From Planctomycetales bacterium (GTDB taxonomy: Bacteria > Planctomycetota > Phycisphaerae > SM23-33), in NCBI GenBank assembly GCA_030612725.1, contig JAUWNJ010000029.1, forward strand, positions 1 to 40,041: a stretch of 40,041 nt of DNA, written 5' to 3'. A program made the translations under genes and the position numbers. Under the pieces are notes generated by a model that had not been told where the DNA came from, ran no database searches, and was given only the letters and a program-made list of their open reading frames with translations. Each line of letters opens with the position of its first letter. Position 1 is the stretch's first letter. Positions 25,661-33,764 of the stretch are shown one piece after another.

Positions 25661-26070
25661 TATCTCATTTTTATATGCTCAAACTGATCGATTTTACCTG
25701 ATTATATCCCCTAACCCCTGTCTTTGCAAAATGTTGCGACAACACGCACCACGAGCGTCCCCGGATCGAGTATATACAGCGCAACTGCCGAGGAAAAAAG
25801 CAAAAAGAAAAAGGCGTTTGTTTTTCTTCCGACCCGCTGGATTTTATATTGATAAATGTACATACTATCGGATGTGATTGGACAGAATAAAATTATGGAT
25901 TCCGAGAGTCTTCTTCACATGGCAAGTCGAATCCGTCGCACCGGTAAAAGGATTTCAGCATCCGAGCATCCCGCCTGTGGGATGTGGAAAGACCACGACG
26001 ACCTGAAGGATGTTCCCCGCTTCGTCAGAAAAATCAGGGGGACGCAAAAGAAAACACGAAGGAATTTCAC
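25661..26070. other. Divergent control region between GH4 and Gfo/Idh/MocA genes
   Basis: 410 bases with no convincing gene. On the minus strand it holds the GH4 promoter listed separately. On the plus side it holds AT-rich sequence (25790-25860) and a short hairpin CATCCC-GCCTGT-GGGATG at 25967-25984, about 90 bases before the Gfo ATG. An open frame at 25856-26086 has no ribosome site and was not accepted. Confidence 0.45.
25701..25729 (-). promoter_or_regulatory. Promoter of the GH4 operon
   Basis: On the minus strand TTGCAA (25729-25724) and TATAAT (25706-25701) are 17 bases apart. The start codon is about 56 bases downstream. The -10 is a perfect consensus. Confidence 0.65.
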
Positions 26071-27207
26071 ATGGCGGAACCATTGAGAATCGCGTTTATC
26101 GGGGCTGGGAATTCCAACTTCGGCGGGGGTGAGGGTCCTTGGGACCATGCATCCCGCCTGGAGAAAATCGGGGATTTGACCATCGTCGGTATCGCCGATT
26201 TGAACACATCCCGTGCCGAGGAGCGTCTTTCTGTTCGCCGGAGCGGGCCGGTCGGCGGGATTTACGCCGAGACCGAAATCTTCGCCGATTTTCGACAGAT
26301 GCTTGATAAAGCCGGGCCTGACGCGGTCTTCATAGGCCTGCCGCCGGAGGCACACGGTACAGCCAGGCCGACGAAGGACATCGAACTTCTCTGCGCCGCC
26401 GCCGGCGTGCACATGTTTATCGAGAAACCCGTCTCCGCCGCCCCGCCGGAAGAGGTCGCCCCCGTAGCCGAGGTGTTGGCCAAGGCCGCTGATGCCGGTC
26501 TGATTATCTCGGTCGGGTATATGTTCCGCTACAGCCGGGCTGTGGCGAAGATGAAGGAGATCATCGCCGAAACTCCCGGCGGCGTCCGCGCGGTCGTCGC
26601 CCGATACAACTGCGCATACAGCGAAATCGCAAGCAAGGTCTGGTGGGACATCCGCCGCACGGGCGGGCCGATTGTCGAGCAGGCGACGCACTTCTGCGAC
26701 CTGACGCGATACGTCGCAGGCGACGCGGACTTATCCACCGTCGCCGCCGTAGCCATTACCGGCGGCGAACCAGCGGGGCGACTTACCGACATCCCCGACG
26801 GGCCTGACGCCGAGCCAATCGACGCCGACATCCCGCCGGAGTTTCGCATCCCGCGCGCCACTGCCGCCGTCTGGCGATTCGCCAACGGGGCCGTCGGTTC
26901 GCTGACTCACGGCGTGCTGCTGCATCGCAAAAAATACCTCGCCGAACTGGAAGCATGGGGCGACGGGCTGCGAATCGTCCTTTCCGACCCCTACGGCCCC
27001 TGCCGGCTCCACGTCCGCTATCCCGGCGGCGAAGAGGTCGAAACGTTGGACTTCGCCGACGACGATCCGTACCTGACTGAGGCGGAGGCGTTTGTCGAAG
27101 CCGTCCGCACCGGCGACGCATCGGCCATCCGCTGCACCTACGCCGACGCGACCAAAACACACCAACTGACCTGGGCCATCAGACGAGCGGCGGAAAAACA
27201 TACTTGA
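26071..27207 (+). CDS. Gfo/Idh/MocA family oxidoreductase
   Basis: A 378-residue NAD(P)-dependent dehydrogenase-like protein. IAFIGAGNSNFGGGEG is the Rossmann motif, with an unusual longer glycine stretch. FIGLPPEAH and FIEKPVSAAPP near 115-145 give the family E-K-P signature. WWDIRRTGGPIVEQATHFCD near 192 carries the active-site region with Asp/His. ATAAVWRFANGAVGSLTHG belongs to the C-terminal sheet. The ATG at 26071 has AAGGA about 8 bases ahead; the frame extends upstream but without support. It is divergent from the GH4 operon and probably uses its sugar. It shares little with the other family member at 11040 beyond fold motifs. Confidence 0.9.
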   Translation: MAEPLRIAFIGAGNSNFGGGEGPWDHASRLEKIGDLTIVGIADLNTSRAEERLSVRRSGPVGGIYAETEIFADFRQMLDKAGPDAVFIGLPPEAHGTARPTKDIELLCAAAGVHMFIEKPVSAAPPEEVAPVAEVLAKAADAGLIISVGYMFRYSRAVAKMKEIIAETPGGVRAVVARYNCAYSEIASKVWWDIRRTGGPIVEQATHFCDLTRYVAGDADLSTVAAVAITGGEPAGRLTDIPDGPDAEPIDADIPPEFRIPRATAAVWRFANGAVGSLTHGVLLHRKKYLAELEAWGDGLRIVLSDPYGPCRLHVRYPGGEEVETLDFADDDPYLTEAEAFVEAVRTGDASAIRCTYADATKTHQLTWAIRRAAEKHT

Positions 27208-27214
27208 CCTGAGA

Positions 27215-27270
27215 ACACAATACTGATTTTATCGACTTGGACCTCGAAAATTGGGATTGTGTCTCCAGAT
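27215..27270. repeat. Left 56-bp direct repeat (REP-like hairpin) bounding the island
   Basis: A 56-bp sequence that begins ACACAATACTGATTTTAT and contains GGGATTGTGTCTCCAGAT. It recurs at 30530-30585 in the same orientation with 53 of 56 matches. Its ends ACACAAT and ATTGTGT are complementary, so each copy can fold into a hairpin. The element starts just after the Gfo/Idh/MocA gene and lies 35 bases before the transposase remnant. Confidence 0.85.
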
Positions 27271-27305
27271 AACCGAAGAGCAAAAGCGATGAAACAGGCC
27301 GAAAG

Positions 27306-27575
27306 ATGGAAGCCCACAACAAAATGGCGAGAGTTAATACGCCTGTCCCCTTAACTCCCGATCATATTGCCGACTGGTCGGCGTGGCTACGCGATGAAGA
27401 CGATAAGGTGATCCTGGCCCGGCTGCGGCGGAACACTTCCACCGGCGGGTCGGCGGGGAATGACGGTTTCATAGATCGTCTCGAAGCAATGCTTGGCCAC
27501 GTCCTCATGCCGAAAAAGGGAGAACGACCAAGAAAACAAAAAAAGATATCCAGGAAAGGAAAAAAACATGGGTAG
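27306..27575 (+). pseudogene. C-terminal remnant of a REP-associated tyrosine (IS200-like Y1) transposase
   Basis: The 89-residue frame keeps only the C-terminal end typical of RAYT/Y1 transposases. It has DWSAWLRDEDDKVIL, RRNTSTGGSAGN, DGFIDRLEAMLGHVL, then a basic tail PKKGERPRKQKK. In complete relatives this tail (T-G-x-P-x-G...F-I-x-x-L-E) follows the catalytic HUH and Tyr domain, which is absent here. The upstream part is replaced by repeat sequence, including GAGTTAATACGCCTGTCCCC at 27331. It is inactive as read, but shows that a RAYT once sat next to the REP-like repeats. Confidence 0.7.
27331..27354. repeat. 24-bp repeat, inverted mate at 30462-30485
   Basis: GAGTTAATACGCCTGTCCCC and the next four bases match the complement of 30462-30485 at 22 of 24 positions. 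The pair lies inside the 56-bp direct repeats, so the island has a double boundary at both ends. Confidence 0.75.
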
Positions 27576-27602
27576 CATCCCCATGTTTCCCATGTTTCCC
27601 TG
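27570..27602. repeat. Left 33-bp inverted repeat flanking the HEAT gene
   Basis: Begins GGGTAGCATCCCCATGTTTC and is complementary to 29130-29162 at 31 of 33 positions. It ends 37 bases before the HEAT start codon. Confidence 0.85.
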
Positions 27603-27638
27603 AATGTGGGAAAAAGAAACATAAATAGGAGAATACTC

Positions 27639-29117
27639 GTGTCTATTGTTAAACGAATTAGTCTTGTAATGGTTTTTGTTGGGTTCGCAACCTGTTCGTG
27701 CTGTATTGCGGATCAAACCGAAATGGCGCTTCCGGAATTCGGGAATCATAACACGCAGTCGGAGCATTCATCAAGCAGACCATTTAGAGAAGCGGATAAA
27801 ATCAGGAATGCCCAGATAAGAATAAGACGGTTACTACCCAGTTTAGTGGAAATGTACCTCAGTAGTAAAGATGAAGATGTGAGAAACGCGGCTTATGGCG
27901 CACTGCTTACGATAGGCTTAGATAACGCTGTGAATTCTGTAGTACTGGTTGATAAGATTACCTCTGCGCTGCGAAAAGAGTCCGGAGATGTTAAAGCAAG
28001 AGCGCTTATGCTCCTTGCGGACATGGGACCGGACGCCAAGGGTGCTGTGCCTGTTCTACTGAGAATGTTGAGAAATGACACAGCGTTGCAGTTTCTAGTG
28101 GTACGTACACTCGGGAGGATCGGGAGCGCTCCCGGAGTGGTACCCGAACTGCTTCGATTACAAAAGTCACGTGCACCGGGATTTGTTCTTGCCGAGGCCG
28201 ACCTTGCATTAGGGCGATTAAGGGTGCAAGAGTCTATACCGAAGATTAGAGAACATTTAACGAACGATGACTCAGGATTAAGAGCGCATGCGGCTAAGGC
28301 ACTTGGGTTTATGGCAACAATACCGGAAAATGTCTTGAAACAGTTGATCAATGCGTGCAGTGATAACTCTGTAGAAGTTCGAGAAGAAGCTGTGCGGGCC
28401 TTGGGCAACATAGGAAAAAGTTCGAAATCTATAATAGATGCGATCAAGAAAGGACTGGATGACAAACATGAAAATGTGCAAAAGGCCGCAATTGAGGCAG
28501 TGGCTAAGATGTACGTGGTCCGTTCTGACATTATCCTCCAACTTGTGAAGCTTGCTAATAGCAAGAACTTTTGGGTCGCATTACGGGCTGAGGAGACCTT
28601 GCGAATTATAGGGTGGAGGAACATCTCTACATTGAGTATGTTACTAAGAAAGTCGGAAGTGAAAGAGCACGACACGATCACTCGTGTCTTATCGAGAACA
28701 TCCCGAGAGGGCGCTGAGGTTGTTGCCAATCTAGTACTGACTGGGAGTCCTGCTGCATTATCTGCATTAAATGGTATGCGAGGCGCTCCAGAACACGCGG
28801 AAATGTTTGAAAAAGCAGTGGCGAAAGGCATTTCAACTCCAGGTCTTACCTACGAGGCTCTCATTACTGTGGGGGCATTGAGGTTATCATCAAGGAGAAT
28901 GATATTGGACGTCATTGGGGTACTTAGTAACGCTAAGGTGGATGCTGGTGTGCGGGCCGAGGCCGCTGAAGTTCTTGGGATAATAGGCAGGAATTCAAAG
29001 GAGGCGCGGAAAAAACTAGAGGCAGCAACAGGGGATAAGAATCCCAATATATCAGAAGCAGCCCGACATGCTCTGAAAAAACTTGTTGTTGTCCCTGAAA
29101 ATTCCATACGGAATTAA
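27639..29117 (+). CDS. Secreted HEAT-repeat protein
   Basis: A 492-residue protein with a signal peptide (MSIVKRISLVMVFVGFATC). At least nine alpha-helical repeats of the HEAT/PBS-lyase type follow from about residue 45 to the end. Typical units are VRNAAYGALLTIG, VKARALMLLADMG, LRAHAAKALGFMA, VREEAVRALGNIG and VRAEAAEVLGIIG. HEAT solenoids bind proteins; no catalytic domain is attached. I chose GTG 27639 because AGGAG lies 7 bases ahead. The gene is visibly AT-richer than its neighbours and lies alone between 33-bp inverted repeats. It therefore looks like cargo from another background. Its partner and role are unknown. Confidence 0.85.
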   Translation: MSIVKRISLVMVFVGFATCSCCIADQTEMALPEFGNHNTQSEHSSSRPFREADKIRNAQIRIRRLLPSLVEMYLSSKDEDVRNAAYGALLTIGLDNAVNSVVLVDKITSALRKESGDVKARALMLLADMGPDAKGAVPVLLRMLRNDTALQFLVVRTLGRIGSAPGVVPELLRLQKSRAPGFVLAEADLALGRLRVQESIPKIREHLTNDDSGLRAHAAKALGFMATIPENVLKQLINACSDNSVEVREEAVRALGNIGKSSKSIIDAIKKGLDDKHENVQKAAIEAVAKMYVVRSDIILQLVKLANSKNFWVALRAEETLRIIGWRNISTLSMLLRKSEVKEHDTITRVLSRTSREGAEVVANLVLTGSPAALSALNGMRGAPEHAEMFEKAVAKGISTPGLTYEALITVGALRLSSRRMILDVIGVLSNAKVDAGVRAEAAEVLGIIGRNSKEARKKLEAATGDKNPNISEAARHALKKLVVVPENSIRN

Positions 29118-29129
29118 GGGGACGGGAAA

Positions 29130-29162
29130 CAGGGAAACATGGAAAACATGGGGACGCTACCC
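29130..29162. repeat. Right 33-bp inverted repeat flanking the HEAT gene
   Basis: Begins CAGGGAAACATGGAAAACAT and ends GGGGACGCTACCC. It is the inverted mate of 27570-27602 (31 of 33). A further partial copy of the same wording (CATGGGGACGCT...ACCCATG) follows directly and is split by the MITE at 29181. Confidence 0.85.
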
Positions 29163-29180
29163 AAGAAACATGGGGACGCT

Positions 29181-29310
29181 GGGGTTGTTGAAAAAGTCGT
29201 CTGATGGGTAACACGGGCGTCTCGCCCGTGCTGGTTTTACCGGAAATCGTAACATTTTCCAAGGTTCCTCACGGGCGAGACGCCCGTGTTACGACTTTTT
29301 CAACAACCCC
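29181..29310. mobile_element. 130-bp MITE with perfect 20-bp terminal inverted repeats and 5-bp target duplication
   Basis: The ends GGGGTTGTTGAAAAAGTCGT (29181-29200) and its exact complement (29291-29310) are perfect 20-bp terminal repeats. Inside them, 29210-29230 and 29270-29290 are a second perfect 21-bp inverted pair, each of which is itself a hairpin (ACGGGCG..CGCCCGT). The element is flanked by ACGCT on both sides (29176-29180 and 29311-29315), a clean target duplication. It carries no gene and must be moved by a transposase in trans. It interrupts a second copy of the CATGGGG-type repeat. Confidence 0.9.
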
Positions 29311-29389
29311 ACGCTACCCATGTTTCCCATGTTTCTAATCGTATCGTTGTATTTTAATGGGTCACGATATGCATTTTGGAGATTTTGGC

Positions 29390-30322
29390 ATGAATATCTT
29401 GCAAAAGTACATTCTGTTTATAGCAATGTTACTGTCTGGGTGCGGCCTATTGCTTTCTTCGTGTAAAAAGAACGATGCCAACGGAATTGACCAATACCCC
29501 TGGATGTCCAGTGACGGCAAAAAGAAAACTGACTTCATAGTGCAAAACCCGCCGTCTATTGCTTTGTTGCGATATATTGACCAGATATGGATGCATGATG
29601 GCGATAAATGGTCCAAAAATGTAACGGAGAAAGAAAGAGGCGACTTGGAAAAACGCTTAGAATACCTACGCGTTCGCGTTTTTGTCGTTTGGGGTCAAAG
29701 GCAAAATGTTGTCAAATTGCTGGAAAAAATAACAAAGGAGGTGAGCAAATGCGATCTGGAGGAACTTCGTAGGCAATTTTCAATGGGGAACAGAGGGCGT
29801 AAGGACATTGTAACAATGACAGCCGAGGGTTTTGCAAAGTCTCTTCCTGAATCTAAAAAAAGCGACACGGATATAGCCCAATACCTGTTTGCCAAACTTG
29901 TCATATCGGCCAGGTTCCGCGATAAGCGAATTATGATTGGGATAACAGGCTTGTCCAGGAACAAAGAAGAAGATGAGTACACAACGTTTCATCTGGAACC
30001 TTCGTCGTTATCAGAAATAAAAGATTCGATCATGCCGTTCTGGGAAGGCTTGAATAAGAATATAAACATTGTCTCCAGCGGTATATTTCCTCCTGTTAGT
30101 GCGAAATATCTCACACACAGAGCCTTGGATACTGGTAAATATCCGATAAGTTTTTCTGATACGCCGGCAGGAAGATTCCCCGGTTTCTGGGATGATAAAA
30201 ACGCAACCTTTTTGAGTGCGGGCGTAGGGCCTATTGAATGGCATACCTGCGAAATGTTTGGAACACCAAAGCGTGTAGAATGCCTAGCGCGGATGGTTGT
30301 AGATCATGTTGTTTGGAAATAG
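29390..30322 (+). CDS. Orphan lipoprotein of unknown function
   Basis: A 310-residue protein. The N-terminus MNILQKYILFIAMLLSGC is a lipoprotein signal with the lipobox LSGC (Cys 18); LLSSC at 25 is a second possibility. The mature part is mixed alpha/beta, rich in Lys and Asp, with no repeats or recognised motif. A central part has KDIVTMTAEGFAKSLPESKK and the C-terminus has GVGPIEWHTCEMFG. The ATG at 29390 has GGAG 8 bases ahead. It is AT-richer than genes outside the island and follows the HEAT gene and MITE on the same strand. Both secreted products may have arrived together. No family recognised. Confidence 0.8.
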   Translation: MNILQKYILFIAMLLSGCGLLLSSCKKNDANGIDQYPWMSSDGKKKTDFIVQNPPSIALLRYIDQIWMHDGDKWSKNVTEKERGDLEKRLEYLRVRVFVVWGQRQNVVKLLEKITKEVSKCDLEELRRQFSMGNRGRKDIVTMTAEGFAKSLPESKKSDTDIAQYLFAKLVISARFRDKRIMIGITGLSRNKEEDEYTTFHLEPSSLSEIKDSIMPFWEGLNKNINIVSSGIFPPVSAKYLTHRALDTGKYPISFSDTPAGRFPGFWDDKNATFLSAGVGPIEWHTCEMFGTPKRVECLARMVVDHVVWK

Positions 30323-30529
30323 GCTGTGTGTGTAGTTGTTGTCCCTATTCATGAAAGGCTGCCGTAGGTCAAGACCCTTCTGGTTTTTTCTTTTTTTTTG
30401 TTTTTCGGCCATTTTGACGCATTGCGCCTTCCGCGGAGCGCGGAGAGGGAAAACATGGGTATTAAGGGAACAGACGTATTAACTCTGTTGTTTTTTCTTT
30501 GCGTGCTTGATAGTTTTTTAAATCCGGGG
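30323..30529. other. Non-coding part of the island
   Basis: No gene seen. It contains T-rich runs near 30385-30405, the 24-bp repeat at 30462-30485 that is the inverted mate of 27331-27354, and a TTGTTTTTTCTTT stretch after it. Confidence 0.5.
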
Positions 30530-30585
30530 ACACAACACTGATTTTATTGACTTGGAGCTCGAAAATTGGGATTGTGTCTCCAGAT
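30530..30585. repeat. Right 56-bp direct repeat (REP-like hairpin) bounding the island
   Basis: Matches 27215-27270 at 53 of 56 positions in the same orientation. It keeps the complementary ends ACACAA and TTGTGT. The three differences are single substitutions. Confidence 0.85.
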
Positions 30586-30600
30586 TCGCATAAGCGTCTT

Positions 30601-30706
30601 ACGAGCCGCGACCGCAAGCCTGCCCCGTGGGGGGGAACGGTCATTAAGACTTTCGCACTGGTCTGACCGCTCCCCCCCACGGGGCAGGCTTACAGTCGCG
30701 GCTCGT
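30601..30706. repeat. 43-bp near-perfect inverted repeat (large hairpin)
   Basis: Arms 30601-30643 and 30664-30706 are complementary at 40 of 43 positions, with a 20-base loop. Each arm has ACGAGCCGCGAC outside and CCTGCCCCGTGGGGGGG inside. The GC-rich wording differs from the AT-rich island next to it. It carries no gene and resembles a non-autonomous palindromic element. It could also stop transcription entering the AGE operon. Confidence 0.85.
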
Positions 30707-30846: not shown

Positions 30847-32040
30847 ATGGACATCGCCCGATACGCGGACTTCTATCGCGACAAACTCATCAATGACGTG
30901 ATTCCGTTCTGGATTCGCCACTCGCCCGACCGCGATTGCGGCGGATACTTTACCTGTCTGGACCGGGCAGGGGAGGTTTATGACACCGACAAATTCATGT
31001 GGCTTCAGGGCCGGCAGGTATGGGTGCTGTCAAAAATGTACCGCCAGGTTCGTCAGGAGGCCGAATATCTGGACCTCGCCCGGCTGGGGGCGGAGTTCAT
31101 CCGCGATCACGGGTTCGACGAAAACGGAAATATCTATTTCGCCCTAGAGCGGGACGGAAAGGCTTACGCCAATACCTGCATCTTCAGCGATTGCTTCTGC
31201 GCGATGGGACTGGCCGAGTACGCCGCAGCCGCCGCCTGCCCCGATGGGGGTCCCGATGCCGACTGGGCGCGCGACCTGGCGATGAAAACCTACAACGGTA
31301 TCCAGGAATGGCTGGTGAACAAGGAAGACCCATACTCGCGGTTCATCCCCGGCGTCAGACCATTAACGTCGCTGGCCTTCGACATGATTAACGTGAACAT
31401 GTCGCTGGAGTTGGATTCAGTTATTAGCGATCCTGTTTTTCGACAATGCGGGCTGGCATCGGCCGAGAGGATCCTGAACCTGCACGTGGACCGCAAGGAA
31501 GGTCTGGTCTTCGATAACGTCGCACCGGACGGGTCGCACCCCGACACCTTCCCCGGTCGGGTGGTCCTCCCCGGCCACGCGATGGAGTGCCTGTGGTTTC
31601 TCATCTCCGCCGGCGAGACGTGGGGCAGGGATGACATCGTCGCGTCGGCCATTGAGGCAATCCCCGACATGCTGGAGTTCGGTTGGGACAAGCAGTATGG
31701 CGGATTCTTCTATTACCGCGACGCTGCCGGCAAGCCGCCGGAACAGTTGGAATGGGACCAAAAACTCTGGTGGGTCCAGAGCGAGGCGATGATCGCGCTG
31801 CTAATGGCCTACAAACACACCGGCCGGGAGGAATTCGCCTCGTGGTTCGAGAAGTTCCACGATTACTGCTGGGGCCACTATCCCGACCCCGAGCACGGGG
31901 AATGGTTCGGCTACCTCAACCGAGGCGGGGAGATCCTGCTGAATATGAAAGGCGGCAAGTGGAAGGGCTGCTTCCACCTGCCGCGGATGCTGCACATGTG
32001 TTGGAAACTGCTGGAAGACCTGAAAGGGAATAAAGGGTAG
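30847..32040 (+). CDS. AGE family sugar 2-epimerase (N-acylglucosamine 2-epimerase-like)
   Basis: A 397-residue (alpha/alpha)6-barrel enzyme of the AGE/cellobiose 2-epimerase family, which epimerises C2 of N-acetylglucosamine or free sugars. FWIRHSPDRDCGGYFTCLD near 21 and FMWLQGRQVWVLSKMYR near 50 are family signatures. GHAMECLWFL near 240 carries a catalytic His, and CFHLPRMLHMCWKLLE at the end carries another. The ATG at 30847 has AAAGG 8 bases ahead; the upstream extension is ignored. Its TAG stop lies inside the first copy of a dispersed repeat. The GH-like gene follows 124 bases later, probably in the same operon. Substrate is not certain. Confidence 0.88.
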   Translation: MDIARYADFYRDKLINDVIPFWIRHSPDRDCGGYFTCLDRAGEVYDTDKFMWLQGRQVWVLSKMYRQVRQEAEYLDLARLGAEFIRDHGFDENGNIYFALERDGKAYANTCIFSDCFCAMGLAEYAAAAACPDGGPDADWARDLAMKTYNGIQEWLVNKEDPYSRFIPGVRPLTSLAFDMINVNMSLELDSVISDPVFRQCGLASAERILNLHVDRKEGLVFDNVAPDGSHPDTFPGRVVLPGHAMECLWFLISAGETWGRDDIVASAIEAIPDMLEFGWDKQYGGFFYYRDAAGKPPEQLEWDQKLWWVQSEAMIALLMAYKHTGREEFASWFEKFHDYCWGHYPDPEHGEWFGYLNRGGEILLNMKGGKWKGCFHLPRMLHMCWKLLEDLKGNKG

Positions 32041-32133
32041 GCTGGGACAGAGCGACACGTAGTGTCCCTACGGGAAGCGGAGTTCCACCTTTCTTTGATT
32101 GCCGGGACTCTGCTCCGTTTCGTCCCGGCCTAC
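32037..32133. repeat. Dispersed GTAGGCTGG palindromic element, copy 1
   Basis: Starts GTAGGCTGGGACAGAGCGA and ends CGTCCCGGCCTAC, its near complement, with CCACCTTTCTTTGATTGCC in the middle. Two relatives lie at 33672-33748 and 34940-35040. It provides the stop codon of the AGE gene. An inner ACACGTAGTGTCCCTACGGG block is shared with copy 3 only. Confidence 0.8.
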
Positions 32134-32164
32134 GGAATTCCGAAAGGAATGAAAGGTTAAAACG

Positions 32165-33667
32165 ATGCTCACCAAACTGAAGTTTGACGCCCCGCGCTGG
32201 CTGGTGCTGACCGGGAAGGACGAGGCGCTGGAGCACTACGCCGCAGCCGAGGCCGGTGCGTTAATTCAGCAGCACGTGCCCTACGTGGTGCAGACTATCG
32301 TCGGCGGCTGCGACCGGCGGAGGCTCAAGAAGCACAACATCCTGGCTGTCGGAACGCCGGAGTCCAACAGCCTCATCGCCTCACTTGTCGCCGAAGGCAA
32401 GGTTCGCCTGGCGAAAAAGCCGCAGTCGTACACTATCGCCGTTTTGCCAAGCCCGTACAACTCCGCCCGGCAGGTGCTGGTGTTGGCAGGGTCGGACTCG
32501 CCGGGCGTTCTCTACGCCGTCCGCGACTGGGAACACTATTGCCACGACCCCTACGTTACCGGCCTTGTCCCGCCGTGGTTTCCGCAAACCGGCGCATCCA
32601 AACCCGCCCGCCCGACGATTCACGTGAAGACGCCGTTCCACCAATCCGTCCCGGACTGGAACATCACCGGCTCGCCGAAAATCCTCGAGCGCGGCATCTG
32701 GACCTGGGGACACGTCGTCTATGACTACCGGCGATTCCTGGAAAATATGAGCCGCTGGAAGATGAATATCCTGATTGCCTGGAACGATTACGCCCCCGTC
32801 AACGCCCGCGAGATTACCGACTACGCCCACTCGCTGGGCATAAAGTTAATCTGGGGCTATACGTGGTGCTGGGGCGAAAAGGTCAACCCGTCCGACCCTG
32901 CCCAACTGGCCCGCTGGCGCGATCGCGTCATACGCACTTATGAAGAGCAATACGCCCCCACCGGCGGCGACGGTATCTACTTCCAGACGTTCACCGAGAC
33001 CAAAGACCTGAAGATCGGGCGAAAGACCATCGCCGAACTGGCTGCCCGATGGGTCAACGACATCGGCGCCGCCCTGCTCGAGCGCCATCCGGACTTGTGG
33101 ATACAGTTCGGCCTGCACGCTATGAGCATCCGCGACAACATCAACCACATCAAGGCCGTCGATCCGCGGATTAACATCACCTGGGAAGACGCCGGGTGTT
33201 TCCCGTATTCCTACAGCCTTGACGACGTGGAAGGTCTGAACGAGACCGTCGCCTACACTCGCCGCCTGGCCGGGCTGCGAGGACCGGTCGAAGACGTCGG
33301 CCTGGTGCTCAAGGGCATGACCAGTCTGAACTGGGACACATTCGAGTATCAACTCGGGCCGTTCGTAATGGGCAGGGCAGACCGCGACTTCATCCGCCGA
33401 CGGACCGAGTTGATCGAGCCGCGATGGAAACAGAACGAAATCGGCTGGCGGGAGCGCCTCCCCGCCGTCTGCCGGACAATCCAGGCCGCCGTCGCCGCTC
33501 GTCCAAAAAGGCTCACCATCACCGGCCTGGTCGATGACGGAATGTGGGAAGAGCGAATGTTCCTACCGACCTGCCTGCTGGCTGAAGCGATGTGGAACCC
33601 CAACGAGCGACCCGAATCAATCATCGCCAAAGTCGCCGTCACACGCGATGCGCATTGTCTGGCGTAA
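32165..33667 (+). CDS. Glycoside hydrolase-like protein (GH20/GH67-type N-domain plus TIM barrel)
   Basis: A 500-residue protein. The first 120 residues form an alpha/beta domain with NILAVGTPESNSLI and RQVLVLAGSDSPGVLYAVRD, as seen before the barrel in GH20 hexosaminidases and GH67 alpha-glucuronidases. From about 165 comes a TIM barrel: GIWTWGHVVYDYRRFLENMS, NILIAWNDYAPV, IKLIWGYTWCWGE, and DGIYFQTFTETKDL. The Glu in TFTET is a candidate catalytic acid. There is no signal peptide. The ATG has AAAGG 8 bases ahead. It follows the AGE epimerase gene, suggesting that it frees a sugar acid or amino sugar for that enzyme. No exact GH family can be given. Confidence 0.75.
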   Translation: MLTKLKFDAPRWLVLTGKDEALEHYAAAEAGALIQQHVPYVVQTIVGGCDRRRLKKHNILAVGTPESNSLIASLVAEGKVRLAKKPQSYTIAVLPSPYNSARQVLVLAGSDSPGVLYAVRDWEHYCHDPYVTGLVPPWFPQTGASKPARPTIHVKTPFHQSVPDWNITGSPKILERGIWTWGHVVYDYRRFLENMSRWKMNILIAWNDYAPVNAREITDYAHSLGIKLIWGYTWCWGEKVNPSDPAQLARWRDRVIRTYEEQYAPTGGDGIYFQTFTETKDLKIGRKTIAELAARWVNDIGAALLERHPDLWIQFGLHAMSIRDNINHIKAVDPRINITWEDAGCFPYSYSLDDVEGLNETVAYTRRLAGLRGPVEDVGLVLKGMTSLNWDTFEYQLGPFVMGRADRDFIRRRTELIEPRWKQNEIGWRERLPAVCRTIQAAVAARPKRLTITGLVDDGMWEERMFLPTCLLAEAMWNPNERPESIIAKVAVTRDAHCLA

Positions 33668-33671
33668 TCCT

Positions 33672-33748
33672 GTAGGCTGGGACGGAGCGAAGCGGAGGCC
33701 CACCTTTCTTGAATTGCCGGGACTTCGCTTCGCTCCGTCCCGGCCTAC
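33672..33748. repeat. Dispersed GTAGGCTGG palindromic element, copy 2
   Basis: The simplest copy. The 23-base arms starting GTAGGCTGGGACGGAGCGAA and ending with the complement (GGCCTAC) differ at one position. The loop contains GCCCACCTTTCTTGAATTGCC. It lies between the GH-like gene and ilvC and probably forms a strong hairpin in the RNA. Confidence 0.85.
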
Positions 33749-33764
33749 AGACTAAGAAACCTTC

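Follow-up and report, generated by a model that had tools for sequence, protein, structure and literature searches.

The 40-kb window analysed here (positions 1-40,041 of a contig of a Planctomycetales bacterium, the source genome, G000) contains a 3.3-kb island between a Gfo/Idh/MocA oxidoreductase gene and a GlcNAc 2-epimerase family gene (AGE). A first-pass annotation had described it as an AT-richer segment, bounded by 56-bp direct repeats, that holds a remnant of a RAYT (a transposase associated with repetitive extragenic palindromes, REPs), a HEAT protein, a miniature inverted-repeat transposable element (MITE), and an orphan lipoprotein. All four are present between the repeats, and the comparison of base composition that it had proposed agrees with the description: GC is 0.460 inside the island versus 0.574 outside, and at third positions the HEAT and lipoprotein genes have GC of 0.43 and 0.46 versus 0.69-0.80 in five neighbouring genes. 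Several RAYT/TIRYT-type repeats, the 3' fragment of a RAYT, a MITE with terminal inverted repeats (TIRs), and two AT-rich genes are stacked in the island (Table 1). The repeats are named REP-a (the direct pair of 56 or 64 bp), b, c, d (an inner inverted pair), and GTAG-type REPINs (inverted REP doublets); family c (CCCATGTTTCCC), which flanks the genes, and a long hairpin at the right had not been mentioned before.

G002, a genome of the same genus, has GH4, Gfo/Idh, AGE, and IlvC in the same order, with 82-89% identity at the DNA level. There, Gfo/Idh and AGE lie about 100 bp apart, without the HEAT gene, the lipoprotein gene, or REP-a. Thus, the entire content of the island is missing between the same two genes, and the island is a presence/absence segment. 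A search with AGE of the GTDB 220 contigs returned only relatives at about 44-51% identity and no further empty sites. Neither the HEAT gene nor the lipoprotein gene has an ortholog in the genus or a second copy. The HEAT protein matches Pfam HEAT_2 (1.4e-35) and has one relative in the family, at 40%, which lies in a different setting in G020. The lipoprotein has no convincing Pfam match, no NCBIfam match, and no relative in the 397 genomes of the class in which protein relatives were sought, in genome contigs including GTDB, in viral contigs, or in plasmids; its AlphaFold model, made without an alignment, is unusable (mean confidence score, pLDDT, of 37). The simpler reading is that the source lineage acquired these two AT-rich genes, which look foreign and probably encode exported proteins.

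In the next slot, 1.5 kb away between AGE and ilvC, a gene of 500 aa is enclosed by two GTAG-type REPINs in direct orientation. In G002, this slot has one REPIN and no 500-aa gene, and the left and right flanks of that REPIN match the left and right outer flanks of the pair in the source genome. Since the last 30 residues of the 500-aa gene also follow AGE in G018, G002 has probably lost the gene, and the arrangement of the flanks suggests that the loss likely occurred by recombination between the two REPINs. Recombination between repeats had been offered earlier as one origin of the island, and a search for an empty site that retains one 56-bp copy as a check. Such a footprint, in which a relative keeps one copy of the repeat together with the sequences outside the pair on both sides, is found with the GTAG REPINs at 32035-33752, but not with the 56-bp pair: G002 has no REP-a at the Gfo/Idh|AGE slot, and consequently the predicted one-copy empty site is missing there.

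Other slots in the genus are also bordered by repeats. The genes fliN, fliO, and fliP lie close together in G003 and in those other genera for which both ends were read (slot of about 690-930 bp including fliO). The fliN|fliO slot holds a REPIN-b and a 338-aa lipoprotein in G000, and two genes and two REP-a copies in G001. In G002 it holds three AT-rich genes, which code for an ion-channel/pentapeptide protein, a nucleotidyltransferase, and an unknown protein; a GTAG palindrome marks the left edge of this slot, and a repeat that by eye resembles d lies at its right edge. This slot, empty in the outgroups, is filled in three different ways within the genus. On G002 contig C162 (L191 418-2820), the nucleotidyltransferase-domain gene and a small partner open reading frame (ORF) in the flagellar operon may be a toxin-antitoxin pair. 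Upstream of lnt, the space between genes of 478 aa and 509 aa contains a RAYT tail, REP-a, and an 80-aa gene in G000, and two unrelated genes with a/b-type repeats in G001; the right-hand REP is retained while the enclosed genes differ. Orthologous slots that follow a 264-aa gene or precede trxB likewise hold repeats or RAYT fragments together with differing genes, and on G002 contig C94 a 347-aa DUF3592 gene has a RAYT fragment that ends in b on one side and two inverted b copies on the other. Among the fetched loci, on which recurrence was judged, no cargo gene turned up in a second slot.

Taken together, these observations lead us to propose, at marginally better than an even chance, that these sites are repeat-bordered slots for variable genes, whose turnover occurs most likely by recombination at the repeats. 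One such slot would lie between the conserved Gfo/Idh and AGE genes. Short non-autonomous RAYT/TIRYT repeats, including internally deleted RAYTs that keep their ends and 3' part, would pile up in the slots. Because the same repeats are common to many slots, and possibly are also brought by incoming DNA, recombination between the copies, whether homologous or by slippage, could then add or remove the enclosed genes. If so, repeat recombination, beyond chance insertion alone, may have brought in the HEAT and lipoprotein genes.

A different explanation is that such spacers simply tolerate insertion, so that repeats, RAYTs, and foreign genes would each insert there on their own, with no role for the repeats in moving genes. 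The island, with at least five unrelated repeat families, and the empty G002 site without REP-a are both consistent with this, as are the repeats found in spacers whose two neighbours are ordinary genes (L123, L127, L128) and the hairpins that ordinary spacers commonly hold. However, the exact repeat-to-repeat junction at AGE|ilvC and the lnt slot, with its conserved right-hand REP around changing genes, argue against it, and we consider such a neutral hotspot possible but rather doubtful. Base composition was compared with that of a 400-kb sample of the source genome, which served as background for the repeat and GC tests. The sample itself has no copy of b or c, and its only a-like matches are two weak ones. 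The neighbouring gene has a GC of 0.48 or less in 8/17 spacers with repeats a-c versus 12/151 in the sample (P 1e-4), and the enrichment is also seen without the window (5/14, P 0.007) and at the level of loci (4/10, P 0.01), although the test was post hoc, used a rough mechanical ORF caller, and treated spacers that are not independent. These weaknesses weigh against turnover by recombination at repeats, as do three other points: most AT-rich genes in the sample have no a, b, or c repeat nearby; long hairpins, whatever their family, are not clearly commoner beside AT-rich genes (3/14 versus 17/137); and the Gfo/Idh|AGE slot (27207-30585) itself offers no single-copy junction.

The direct pair that drew attention to the island is real. 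The copies at 27215-27270 and 30530-30585 are identical at 53 of 56 positions (95%) on the same strand, and a simple model predicts about 1e-18 such pairs by chance in 40 kb. The true unit is a dispersed 64-bp quasi-palindrome (57/64 identical between the copies) with ends GGGGACACAA...TTGTGTCCCC. The consensus has GGGGACAC ends that fit GGGGWSAS, the terminal inverted end of a TIRYT-type repeat, and is palindromic at 44/64 positions; both window copies fold better than shuffled sequences. REP-a occurs at five places in G000: two in the window, two on contig C20 that are 167 bp apart, and one on contig C60. About ten further copies in G001, G003, and G187 are solitary or 182-266 bp apart, and none was found in G002. 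Since the other copies are solitary or closely paired, REP-a does not define a transposon boundary, and a pair 3.3 kb apart that encloses genes is an exception. The copies on C20 and C60 (L048, L140) adjoin paralogous exported-looking proteins of 453, 675, and 509 aa.

The AT-rich segment flanked by two direct copies could suggest an ordinary composite or insertion sequence-like transposon ended by the 56-bp repeats. Besides the solitary and closely paired copies elsewhere, this is made unlikely by the lack of an intact transposase gene inside and of a whole transposase element at either end, by the roughly 250 bp, including another palindrome, that separate the right copy from the conserved flank, and by the G002 empty site without REP-a. 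We disfavour it as very improbable. The earlier idea that the 56-bp pair delimits a cargo unit is likewise not supported, given copies elsewhere that are solitary or 167-266 bp apart, an empty relative without a copy at the site, and two genes of which neither is duplicated.

It had also been suggested that a REP/RAYT-type system moved or captured the cargo. The repeats are indeed of RAYT/TIRYT type, but transposition of cargo driven by a RAYT finds no support in genes without a second copy and RAYTs without a fixed passenger. The island contains no intact HUH/Y1 (IS200/IS605-like) transposase gene, only a C-terminal RAYT fragment that starts right at the left REP-d and matches RAYTs at 40% over residues 19-85 of the ORF (E 5e-13). 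Intact RAYTs are present elsewhere in the source genome, none of them assigned to REP-a; RAYTs beside ends similar to REP-a occur in G001 and G002. Repeat b has 33 matches in the source genome, lies on both sides of RAYTs, and forms REPIN-b with a start-to-start distance of 72 bp at three sites. In a cargo model, a RAYT acting on distant REP ends would carry genes, either as a gene-bearing REPIN or by one-ended capture at its 3' end. Inverted copies do bracket genes: c surrounds the HEAT gene, d surrounds nearly the whole island, and b brackets the 347-aa gene on G002 C94 and two ORFs on C190. However, these brackets (b>...<b) face opposite to REPINs and RAYT units (<b...b>). RAYT fragments in the genus retain the 3' end and sit just before a gene, as one-ended capture would have it, but four of them have their own left REP, joined at residues 185, 185, 190, and 199. 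These fragments are internally deleted elements with differing breakpoints. Internal deletion is the usual origin of non-autonomous copies, and one-ended capture as the cause of the surviving 3' ends is weakened by these at least four cases. Furthermore, two RAYT copies in a cluster of b and c repeats (G000 C6 28500-35471, L044) are 97% identical, share only a 28-bp repeat end, and are then followed by different small genes; thus, no RAYT carries a fixed passenger here. Together with the lack of a second copy of any cargo gene among the fetched loci, the orientation and the variable neighbours are better explained by adjacent elements recombining with one another, or simply being stacked, than by a gene moving inside an element. 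Cargo transposition by a RAYT is therefore improbable, and it is just as hard to credit the broader idea that RAYT/TIRYT ends mobilise or capture whole genes, with REP-bounded slots forming a simple system of cassettes for exported proteins specific to the lineage. A literature search for RAYTs together with passenger genes gave no paper in the collection that was searched.

The inner inverted pair, first given as 24 bp, is real and extends over 30 bp (87%). REP-c is inverted around the HEAT gene and also lies beside the lipoprotein gene. The arms of the MITE are at 29181-29199 and 29292-29310; this element or a close relative seems to recur on contig C48 (L128 5198-5707), as judged by the same translated stretch, STGETPVL...LFQQP. 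The hairpin has 43-bp arms and is very stable (-54 kcal/mol as DNA), and its palindrome family recurs in ordinary spacers (L174, L179, L181). Rfam matches for 30610-30697 fell far under the curated cut-offs and came from microRNA models fitting a plain hairpin; an Rfam identity was rejected.

Table 1. Features of the island, its flanking genes, and the adjacent AGE|ilvC slot (positions in the window)
Feature	Positions	Strand	
Left neighbour, Gfo/Idh/MocA oxidoreductase	25984..27207	+	
REP-a left copy, 64-bp quasi-palindrome, left end worn	27207..27270	+	
ORF with RAYT (Y1_Tnp-type) C-terminal fragment, homology from ~27360	27306..27575	+	
REP-d, left arm of inner inverted pair, abuts RAYT fragment	27330..27359	-	
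REP-c, left of HEAT gene	27569..27602	+	
HEAT-repeat protein, 503 aa as called (492 aa from 27639), probably exported	27606..29117	+	
REP-c, right of HEAT gene, inverted relative to left copy, 94% over 34 bp	29130..29163	-	
TIR MITE, GGGGTTGTTGAAAAAGTCG ends, inserted in REP-c cluster	29181..29310	.	
REP-c, left of lipoprotein gene	29310..29337	+	
Orphan lipoprotein, 310 aa, lipobox, no relative found	29390..30322	+	
REP-d, right arm of inner inverted pair	30457..30486	+	
REP-a right copy	30522..30585	+	
Long hairpin, dispersed palindrome family, ACGAGCCGCGAC...GTCGCGGCTCGT	30601..30706	.	
Right neighbour, GlcNAc 2-epimerase family gene (AGE)	30850..32040	+	
Next slot, left GTAG-type REPIN	32035..32135	+	
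Next slot, 500-aa gene, absent in G002	32165..33667	+	
Next slot, right GTAG-type REPIN, direct to left one	33672..33752	+	

Parts of this arrangement resemble systems that have been described before. TIRYTs, or TIRtrons, are relatives of RAYTs whose flanking TIRs contain the motif GGGGWSAS (PMC3733652). This motif is matched by GGGGACAC in repeat a and by GGGGACAG in repeat d, and these two repeats occur as dimers and clusters, with RAYT genes that have such flanks in relatives. Unlike TIRYTs, REP-a has no identified cognate RAYT in the source genome, and gene-bearing slots do not figure in the relevant passages of that description. Fixed-size inverted REP doublets (REPIN-b and the GTAG REPINs at 32035 and 33672) and RAYTs with repeat b on both sides are likewise features of the REPIN/RAYT system (PMC3116915) and of GTAG REPs. 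Unlike that system, however, the copies here are few (33 b matches rather than hundreds), and genes are found between adjacent units. In the Pseudomonas fluorescens group, mobile genes and many strain-specific genes lie in REP deserts, and it has been mentioned that genes might be gained by homologous recombination at REPs (PMC3390384). Since variable genes there lie in REP deserts, the border position of some repeat families beside variable genes here is unlike the best studied case. If the pattern seen here is general, short palindromic repeats could allow genes to turn over without any phage, integron, or plasmid, a route that can be tested by ordinary strain comparisons. Whereas REPs mark stable DNA in Pseudomonas, several repeat families here border gene-variable spots, one of them with an exact repeat-to-repeat loss.
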